Shown: positions 48,574 to 50,610 of the stretch, one piece after another
How positions within the stretch are numbered: position 1 is the stretch's first letter
Layout: each line of letters starts with the position of its first letter
The notes under the pieces: generated by a model
Told to the model about the DNA's origin: nothing
Database searches by the model: none
Seen by the model: the letters and a program-made list of their open reading frames with translations, nothing else
Translations under genes and position numbers: made by a program
From: Cytobacillus oceanisediminis 2691
Lineage (GTDB): Bacteria; Bacillota; Bacilli; Bacillales; Cytobacillaceae
Direction of reading: 5' to 3'
Length of the DNA stretch: 64,000 nucleotides
NCBI RefSeq assembly: GCF_007678455.1
Contig: NZ_VEEP01000004.1
Location: forward strand, 186,001-250,000

Positions 48574-49122
48574 TTGAAAACAATCTATCTAGTACGTCAT
48601 GCTAGTGCAGCTGGACAGCCAGTAGACTCGCCATTGACCGAACATGGCCGGAAGCAGGCGCTGGCGCTGGTTGACTTTTTTAAACATAAGGAAATAGATA
48701 GCATCTATTCAAGTCCATTTAAAAGAGCGATCGATACAATAAAGCCTTTGGCCAATTCCAAAGGAATAGAGGTTCTTGAGGATGAAAGACTTGGTGAAAG
48801 AGTGCTGAGCACAGTGAATCTGGAAGACTGGCGGGAAAAGCTGAAACAAACCTTCGAAGACTTCGAGCTTGTTTTTGAGGGTGGAGAGTCTACTTCTGCC
48901 GCGATGAAACGGGCTAAATCCCTGATTGAAGACTTACTATGTTCGGACGATGGTCATATCCTCCTTGTCAGCCATGGAAACATGACCACATTGCTCATGA
49001 GATATTTCAACGAAAGTTTCGGATACGATTGCCTGATGGAAATGACCAATCCAGATGTTTTTGAACTGGTTGTTTCAAGTGAAAGCACACTCCTGAATCG
49101 AATATGGGATGACCGGATTTAA
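48574..49122 (+). CDS. Histidine phosphatase family protein
   Basis: The 182-residue protein belongs to the phosphoglycerate-mutase-like histidine phosphatases. It has RHAS in YLVRHASA with the catalytic His at residue 9, LTEHGRKQALAL, IYSSPFKRAIDT with the second phosphate-binding Arg, and LLVSHGNMTTLLMRYF near the C terminus. The usual RHG motif reads RHA here. The start is TTG behind AGGGGTG. It follows rnz by 18 bases, so they are likely cotranscribed. The substrate is not known. Confidence 0.82.
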   Translation: MKTIYLVRHASAAGQPVDSPLTEHGRKQALALVDFFKHKEIDSIYSSPFKRAIDTIKPLANSKGIEVLEDERLGERVLSTVNLEDWREKLKQTFEDFELVFEGGESTSAAMKRAKSLIEDLLCSDDGHILLVSHGNMTTLLMRYFNESFGYDCLMEMTNPDVFELVVSSESTLLNRIWDDRI

Positions 49123-49209
49123 AACCGTTTAAAAAATGACCCAGAGGGAAATGGAAGGTGATGGAACTATTTCCATCCATTCTTTCTATACGAAACTGGG
49201 GGAGTACGC

Positions 49210-49494
49210 TTGGAATTCTTACTTTTATTCGGTCTTCATTTTTTCATTATGGGTTCACTGGTCATGTTGTTTAGCGGGATTATCACTTTTCTCCTGCCGA
49301 GAATGCATTTCCTGATCACTATTTCCTTATTCGGGATTGTTGGGTTACTGTATGCTGTCATTTTTGAAGTGATGGATCTTGCAATATTCGCGGTTTTCTA
49401 CAATATGATCTTTTCCCTGATCGCGGTTGGTCTCGTTAAATTAGGATTTTATTTTAAAAAGGTTGCTGACCGGCAGAGAGAAAAAATAGCCTAA
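49210..49494 (+). CDS. Small membrane protein, function unknown
   Basis: The 94-residue product has three hydrophobic segments (about 3-28, 32-52 and 54-82) and a basic end (KKVADRQREKIA). The start is TTG behind GGGGGAG, 88 bases after the phosphatase gene. A clear terminator follows. I do not recognise the family. Confidence 0.65.
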   Translation: MEFLLLFGLHFFIMGSLVMLFSGIITFLLPRMHFLITISLFGIVGLLYAVIFEVMDLAIFAVFYNMIFSLIAVGLVKLGFYFKKVADRQREKIA

Positions 49495-49500
49495 TCTTTA

Positions 49501-49527
49501 AAACCAGGAGAGAATCCTGGTTTTTTT
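49501..49527 (+). terminator. Terminator after the small membrane gene
   Basis: AAACCAGGA and TCCTGGTTT pair across GAGAA and are followed by a T-run that runs straight into the -35 region of the cad promoter. Confidence 0.9.
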
Positions 49528-49528
49528 A

Positions 49529-49581
49529 TTGACATTCAAACGGCGGTTTGAATATTATATACTCAAATGATTATTTGAATG
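49529..49581 (+). promoter_or_regulatory. cad-type promoter with two CadC-like operators
   Basis: TTGACA (49529-49534), an 18-base spacer and TATTAT (49553-49558) form a good sigma-A promoter. The spacer with its edges is the palindrome ATTCAAAC-GGCG-GTTTGAAT. Just downstream, TCAAAT-GATT-ATTTGA lies within TATACTCAAAT to ATTTGAATG, which closely matches the known CadC operator of cadmium-resistance operons. The operator outlives the gene it controlled. Confidence 0.75.
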
Positions 49582-49595
49582 AGGTGGATGATAAG

Positions 49596-49770
49596 TTGAA
49601 GGAGCAGGATGTCTGTCAGGTCAATTGTGTCCATAGTGATAAGGTTGAAGAGGTAGCTGGGAAGTTTAAGGAACAAAATACTGCAGATTGTTATTCCTGG
49701 AGAAAAGATTGCTCTGGATGGAGAAGTGGTTGCTGGCTGCTGGGCTGCTTTTAGAGTCAAAAGTAATTAG
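49596..49770 (+). pseudogene. Fused remnant of cadC and cadA (cadmium resistance)
   Basis: From a TTG at 49596 the frame reads LKEQDVCQVNCVHSDKVEEV, the N terminus of CadC-type ArsR repressors with its metal-site cysteines, then stops resembling CadC after about 29 codons. From about 49678, in the next frame, the sequence reads ILQIVIPGEKIALDGEVVAG, the actuator-domain motif of CadA-type P1B ATPases. It then diverges and ends at TAG (49768-49770). The simplest reading is a deletion that joined the starts of the two genes, followed by decay. The helix-turn-helix and all catalytic ATPase motifs are gone, so no function is expected. Confidence 0.65.
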
Positions 49771-49796
49771 AACTTTGCATTTGGGATCAGATTGGG

Positions 49797-50426
49797 GTGG
49801 ACGCTATTAATAATTCCTGGAATAAGATCATTTACAAAGGCTGGGCGCCGATTTATGATGCGATTTTCAATGCCGGCCCTTTTTCCAAGGCGAGAGAGAA
49901 ACTTTTTAAAGACTTACACTTGCAGCCTGGGGACAAAGTGCTTTTTGTTGGTGCAGGCACAGGAGCAGACATCGAGCGCTTGCCCTATGAACAGCTGGAT
50001 ATCACTGCAATCGATTATTCAGAGGATATGCTTCAGAAAGCAAAGGATAAATTCCAGGGCTCAAAGATTACTTTTTTAAAAATGGATGCCCAGCAGCTGG
50101 ACTTTGCTGATGATGCCTTTGATTATGTTGTGGGAAGTTTAATTTTATCCGTCGTCCCCGACCATAGAAGGGCGTTTGCCGAGATGGTAAGAGTATGCCG
50201 GGAGGATGGCCTGGTGCTGGTCTTCGATAAGTTTGCTCAGCCAGGGAAAGGACTTTCCTTCGTCAAGAAAGCCTTCAGGCATGTGATCAAGCTGCTTGGG
50301 ACCGACATCGGCGTATCCTTTGAGGAAGCCTGCTCAACAGAAAAAGACAGAATCCGATTGATTGCTGATGAAGGCGTTATGTTCGGGGATATGTACCGCA
50401 GGATTTTGCTGGTGAAGGGCAGTTAA
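49797..50426 (+). CDS. Class I SAM-dependent methyltransferase
   Basis: The 209-residue protein has the Rossmann-like motifs VLFVGAGTGADIERLPY (motif I) and ITAIDYSEDMLQKAKDKF. LKMDAQQLDFADDAFDYVVG and GLVLVFDKFAQPG follow, as in UbiE/Methyltransf_11 enzymes. The substrate is unknown. The start is probably the GTG at 49797, but there is no strong ribosome site. It follows the cad remnant directly and may once have been part of that metal-resistance cluster. Confidence 0.8.
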   Translation: MDAINNSWNKIIYKGWAPIYDAIFNAGPFSKAREKLFKDLHLQPGDKVLFVGAGTGADIERLPYEQLDITAIDYSEDMLQKAKDKFQGSKITFLKMDAQQLDFADDAFDYVVGSLILSVVPDHRRAFAEMVRVCREDGLVLVFDKFAQPGKGLSFVKKAFRHVIKLLGTDIGVSFEEACSTEKDRIRLIADEGVMFGDMYRRILLVKGS

Positions 50427-50442
50427 ATAAATGATTTCATGG

Positions 50443-50477
50443 AAAGAGGGGCTGTTTTGATGACAGTCTCTTTTTCT
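50443..50477 (+). terminator. Terminator after the methyltransferase gene
   Basis: AGAGGGGCTGT and ACAGTCTCT form an imperfect stem, followed by TTTTTC. Confidence 0.65.
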
Positions 50478-50513
50478 ATGGGGTTACTGTATTAGTAAAC
50501 TGATCTAAGACAT

Positions 50514-50610
50514 ATGACGGACAGAAATTCATGAAAAGCGCACGAAAGTGTCCGTCATCAAGGCTATGACGGACAGAAATTGGTGAAAAGCGCAGGAAAG
50601 TGTCCGTCAT
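50514..50610. repeat. 52-bp-period repeat array C (two units)
   Basis: Two copies, at 50514-50558 and 50566-50610, each consist of ATGACGGACA, 25 bases and TGTCCGTCAT. The ten-base arms are perfectly complementary in both copies, and seven bases lie between units. The 25-base interiors (GAAATTCATGAAAAGCGCAC and similar) differ at a few places. It lies between convergent terminators of the methyltransferase and namA genes. Confidence 0.9.

Follow-up and report, generated by a model that had tools for sequence, protein, structure and literature searches.

The cadCA system of the Staphylococcus aureus plasmid pI258 consists of the repressor CadC and the P1B-type ATPase CadA. Its ArsR/SmtB-type cadC precedes the gene of the Cd/Zn/Pb ATPase, the same arrangement as in the ancestral operon considered here, and the inverted-repeat operator at its promoter resembles the operators described below. 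PMC6975044 states that CadC leaves its operator upon binding cadmium.

The locus that we analysed lies in a window of 64,000 nucleotides, a term used here for the whole stretch of DNA under study. It differs from pI258 in having two operators at a 27-bp pitch and a third gene, which encodes a methyltransferase (MTase), while its cadC and cadA are stubs. We favour, with some confidence, the reading that a three-gene cad operon was displaced here and that its remnant now forms a single-gene unit under trans repression by the CadC of another cadCA system, designated B1.

Genomes and samples

The genus of the window's genome (G000; 4.9 Mb, a draft of 477 contigs) and its close relatives are treated as Mesobacillus in this analysis. 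Our sample of the genus holds 21 genomes of 20 species, since G000 and G101, a genome in one contig, belong to one species. Completeness is only 66% for G010 and 87% for G004, so single absences in these two are uncertain. The species tree was built on rpoB and seven neighbouring genes, some of which are missing in some genomes; a tree of rpoB only was also made. The nearest intact operon is found in a misnamed record (L201), which bears the title Chryseobacterium sp. ISL-80 in spite of its Mesobacillus genes.

Two deletions in an ancestral operon

The original prediction proposed a comparison with intact cadCA loci, and those of G013 and G011 do place the breakpoints of both deletions. Against G013, window positions 49003-49688 align at 94.6% identity and end inside cadC. 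Positions 49686-49747 align at 82% inside cadA, about 0.94 kb further along, and positions 49749-50610 at 84%, about 1.4 kb further again, spanning the end of cadA and the MTase. By arithmetic on these alignment coordinates, the first deletion measures about 945 bp, with GAT as a 3-bp overlap, and the second about 1,377 bp. With G011 the first junction and the end of the CadA stub are the same; this genome has no MTase there to align. The features are collected in Table 1.

Table 1. Features of the cad relic, in window coordinates
Feature	Position	Strand	Remarks
Intrinsic-terminator-like hairpin	49500..49524	+	End of the upstream 94-aa gene
cad promoter, sigma-A type	49529..49558	+	TTGACA-18-TATTAT; -35 at 49529-49534, 18-nt spacer, -10 at 49553-49558; 11/12 consensus matches
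cad operator 1, TCAAACGGCGGTTTGA	49536..49551	.	In the -35/-10 spacer; arms perfect
cad operator 2, TCAAATGATTATTTGA	49563..49578	.	Directly behind the -10; arms perfect
cadC 5' stub	49596..49688	+	31 codons from TTG-49596; G013 alignment; 80% aa over CadC residues 1-50
CadA actuator-region stub, IVIPGEKIALDGEVVAGCWA	49687..49746	+	20 codons, frame other than that of cadC; G013 alignment
Last cadA codons and stop	49747..49770	+	In frame with the actuator stub; reads AFRVKSN-stop
PmtA-like class I SAM methyltransferase	49797..50426	+	209 codons; original third gene of the cad operon

What had been described as one cadC-cadA deletion fusion is thus a deletion remnant, but one of two deletions. 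Twenty CadA codons in another frame were predicted, and the alignment inside the G013 cadA bears this out. The predicted cadC remnant exists as well, although its length is about 31 codons, or 47 counted from the in-frame TTG-49548, as against the predicted 29 or so. Most of both genes is lost, as stated, except that the last cadA codons survive, so that the CadA pieces share one frame, IVIPGEKIALDGEVVAGCWA-AFRVKSN-stop, with its stop at 49770. In cis, then, cadC is present only as a 5' stub, and the ATPase as 20 codons plus a tail. Five base changes in the CadA stub alter 4 of its 20 amino acids (K to I, M to L, F/S to C, S to W), and three of these four residues are at positions invariant in the 14 type-A CadA rows that were read (the G008 row was left out).

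The frame at 49548-49754 is open over 68 amino acids and has a possible start, as expected of a functional small-protein gene. Relatives show full-length cadC or separate pieces instead, and among the genomes searched (a set of 101 and a set of 21) the joined frame had no homologue outside the species, being found only in G000 and G101. We therefore reject this reading as highly improbable, and the conserved small-protein family that would have spoken against the original prediction did not appear.

An assembly error that removed cadCA might be suspected in so fragmented a draft. The one-contig G101 has the same relic structure and differs from G000 at only two bases over 49401-50430, of which one lies within an operator spacer; for this reason we reject an artefact, whose probability is next to nil.

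Upstream of the cad site, at 49210-49494, lies an ORF for a very hydrophobic 94-aa protein, which is present in relatives such as G013 and has no Pfam or NCBIfam match. Behind the MTase, at 50514-50610, two 45-bp copies of a palindromic-ended element (ATGACGGACA...TGTCCGTCAT) follow each other at a 52-bp pitch; overlapping matches to it vary in number at the same site among relatives.

Promoter and operators of the relic

A cad promoter with two CadC-type palindromes was predicted at 49529-49770 and is present, with perfect operator arms. Both operators are palindromes of the form TCAAA-N6-TTTGA and overlap the promoter. The prediction of an undamaged operator is borne out at sequence level, with all 20 operator-arm bases and the TTGACA unchanged. 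Changes did occur in the -10, in the operator spacers and at the base that precedes operator 2. The -35 is the same as in relatives, and the -10 reads TATTAT as against TATGAT in G013. The arms are also perfect in G101 and G016.

With up to one mismatch, the tandem operator occurs once in the 4.9 Mb of G000, and a reversed-pattern control gave 0. A looser single-site pattern at the same threshold finds three sites in this genome, namely the two relic operators and one before the B1 cadC; with up to three mismatches it becomes noisy (60 sites vs 30 in the control). Throughout Mesobacillus, tandem sites with at most one mismatch lie before cadC or in the relics of G000, G101 and G016, and none was found in G001 and G004. 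In G018 (L034) and G015 (L035) the cad promoter-operator unit before cadC is duplicated, giving two tandem operator pairs 62 bp apart.

The exact tandem pattern was found in 94 of the 193 genomes of the family (reversed-pattern control 0 in the rows shown). Outside the genus 77 genomes have a match, and in 53 of them we examined one site each. At 52 of them cadC lies within 100 bp, in 38 cases followed by cadA; the exception is a relic in Neobacillus cucumis (G161), where an MTase follows at 147 bp. Fourteen operator sites have cadC and no cadA, and all 10 of those viewed have a His-rich, CDF-like ORF behind cadC, judged by eye except for L353, the only one tested with Pfam. The operator string was not found in the part of PMC3274271 that was available.

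A plain pseudogene could look much the same, with promoter, operator and MTase persisting because decay is unfinished and not because regulation is selected. We consider this less likely. The CadA stub has drifted, so time has passed, yet the operator arms and the TTGACA are intact. Taken alone, the survival of the operators is weak evidence for selection, since so few bases are concerned.

Parallel losses and the B1 system

The native cadC-cadA is retained by 16 of the 20 Mesobacillus species and missing from that site in G000/G101, G016, G001 and G004. The species tree shows four separate losses: G013 is nearest to G000 (support 96) and G009 is the sister of G016 (support 100), both with intact operons. 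In the rpoB-only tree G001 moves, and the four losses still stand apart. A single ancestral deletion shared by G000 and G016 is rejected because these sisters are intact and the 5' breakpoints differ.

All four losses leave traces at the native site. The remnant of G016 comprises both operators, an inverted 27-bp cadC piece, a cadA tail and an intact MTase. The inverted piece (L037 8707-8733) comes from the start of cadC and lies between operator and cadA tail, so this deletion was not a simple excision. G001 keeps a bit of cadC with a stop and an altered AT-rich palindrome, with no MTase, and G004 keeps fragments of all three genes.

Another relic was found in N. cucumis V32-6. It consists of the tandem operator, a few cadC codons (read by eye against L225), a CadA piece (residues 35-53, E 0.001), a cadA tail and an intact MTase. 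One CadC match at E <= 1e-12 is present in this genome, 74% identical to the B1 CadC and followed by cadA. Operator and MTase thus survive in 2 of the 4 losing species (G000/G101 and G016) and in V32-6; the latter was detected through its MTase and is not counted when asking how often the MTase is kept. Judging from these sequences, the same outcome has arisen separately in at least two lineages besides that of the window.

For a pseudogene in unfinished decay, G004 with its three-gene fragments and G001 with its stop-ridden cadC stub and no MTase would be later stages, and neither kept the tandem operator or an intact MTase. Against such decay, three separate relics end in one arrangement.

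In the CadA tree, the B1 clade (support 1.000) comprises exactly the species that lost cadCA. B1 is present in 4/4 species without the native genes and in 0/16 others (Fisher p = 2.1e-4), and since it is confined to the four losing species, it would seem that a xenolog took the place of the native pump. The original prediction suggested looking for a second cadC; one lies at G000:C11:32983-33345 in the window's genome and is accompanied by a cadA of its own. When compared in pairs, the B1 loci of G101, G016, G001 and G004 have about 2.6-2.9 kb in common and nothing more in the 9-14 kb compared, except for one 116-bp stretch outside the common segment between G101 and G001. These differing neighbourhoods suggest horizontal arrival. 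The best-covering plasmid relatives of B1 are the cadCA genes of Cytobacillus plasmids (H1-H4), 72-74% identical over 98%, which is too distant for them to have supplied it directly. Identities of 80-90% are reached by two plasmid records that do not appear in the list of 15 drawn up by coverage and identity.

The methyltransferase gene

The MTase (METHYLTRANSFERASE) belongs to the operon, as the gene order in relatives is rnz, histidine phosphatase, 94-aa gene, cadC, cadA, MTase. From this synteny we conclude that it is the original third gene of a cadC-cadA-MTase operon and not a bystander.

At the position of the ancestral ATG (49806), G000 and G101 read ATT, and the ribosome-binding site GGAG of the five relatives compared has become GGGG; G016 retains both the ATG and the GGAG. 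GTG-49797, the first in-frame ATG/GTG/TTG, may serve as a substitute start. Translation is probably weaker in the species of G000 than in its relatives, and this species may be losing the enzyme. Such erosion is what a decaying pseudogene would show, but the reading frame itself is under strong constraint. dN/dS is 0.086 for G000-G013 and 0.117 for G016-G009. Polarised changes give synonymous to nonsynonymous ratios of about 39:14 on the G000 branch (2 of these 14 fall in one codon) and 34:12 on the G016 branch, no worse than the 26:16 and 16:17 of the sisters with intact operons. These patterns indicate that the MTase is under purifying selection, which may predate the deletions.

The protein has a class I SAM-methyltransferase fold and domain (Methyltransf_11 and related Pfam families). 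Its top PDB match by profile, and the best in sequence, is 8ys9, the PmtA-type phosphatidylethanolamine N-methyltransferase of R. thermophilum (E 3.6e-27). The predicted structure (pLDDT 82, pTM 0.80) matches 8ys9 over nearly the whole length (TM 0.81, 31% identity over 205 columns). The protein differs from PmtA-type enzymes in scoring 79.5 bits, far below the cut-off of 390, with the NCBIfam PmtA model NF045882 (Legionella), and in its link to metal resistance genes. The substrate is likely a lipid or a similar small molecule, going by sequence and model.

Methyltransferase and cad genes in relatives

A scan of a collection of species genomes gave 252 relatives of the MTase, the best 80 of which were analysed. 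At 25 of these 80 loci cadA is matched on the same strand, its end lying 2-269 nt before the MTase, and 24 of the 25 also have cadC before cadA; the remaining one, L262, has a run of N in cadA. Four of the other 55 loci, those of Bacillus marasmi, N. cucumis V32-6, Saccharibacillus qingshengii and Paenibacillus timonensis, carry exact CadC-type operators in the 500 bp before the gene, at least two sites each, and no cadCA in between. When these 55 upstream regions were simulated, a mean of 0.24 loci had at least one site and 0.005 had at least two. The other 51 of the best 80, a point against our reading, lack both a cadA directly upstream and such an operator in the preceding 500 bp; for one of these loci the upstream sequence covers just 102 bp.

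In the Bacillaceae genome G169 (L353 1359-3011), cadC, MTase and a CDF-type cation exporter follow in this order, with no cadA within the stretch examined. The MTase therefore accompanies cadC also where the pump is a different one.

At the native site of G011, G008, G019 and G003 (L032, L041, L188, L182) cadCA is present and the MTase is lost or broken; in G011, G019 and G003 additional copies of the MTase stand next to other cadCA loci. Extra copies, set against a broken native-site MTase, occur in 3/4 vs 3/15 (p = 0.071), which is suggestive only; counts were set by hand, and G010, whose contig ends behind cadA, was left out.

No description of a cad-linked MTase was found in the literature that we searched. 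Two candidate precedents were rejected. In the available part of the pGIAK1 report, the methyltransferase gene (no. 15) does not stand with the cad genes, among which the cadD copy behind cadC/cadA is no. 34 (PMC3756968). The third gene of the Bacillus vietamensis 151-6 cad cluster is cadD and not an MTase, as far as the available part of PMC6975044 goes.

Discussion

Our preferred reading, a displaced operon whose remnant answers to B1 CadC, runs as follows. A three-gene operon, cadC-cadA-MTase, stood at a fixed chromosomal site in Mesobacillus, and the sequences show that two deletions removed most of its cadC and cadA and left the promoter, the tandem operator and the MTase frame. The arrival of B1 cadCA would have made the native pump redundant. 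This one-gene unit would be repressed in trans by B1 CadC and released by Cd, Zn or Pb, and its enzyme would probably act in the metal response by methylating the head group of a phospholipid or some comparable small substrate.

At sequence level the original prediction is supported, including the possibility that a CadC encoded elsewhere controls the MTase through this operator. Control in trans by B1 CadC is plausible from the sequences and the most likely mechanism. The B1 cadC-cadA has the same half-sites as the relic operators. CadC of type A and of B1 both read TATASHHLR, which we take, from the ArsR/SmtB fold, to lie at the putative recognition helix; both also share the Cys positions DVCxxxC and ELCVCD.

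Most likely, the relic is a stand-alone and possibly fading CadC-regulated gene. In outline this is ordinary decay, yet its outcome is unusual and recurs, and it involves an MTase with a link to metals. More tentatively, a CadC-controlled, PmtA-like lipid MTase could form an independent arm of the Bacillaceae response to Cd/Zn, the old operator keeping the MTase under an incoming CadC.

On this more tentative view, operator and enzyme would repeatedly outlive the operon wherever the native pump gives way to a mobile cadCA. If our preferred reading is right, the relics are a natural, repeated experiment on what an operon retains once its regulator and main gene have been supplied from outside, namely its operator and whichever gene was not brought in. 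The link of this MTase to cadC across several genera of Bacillaceae raises the question of whether Cd or Zn may induce methylation of membrane lipids.
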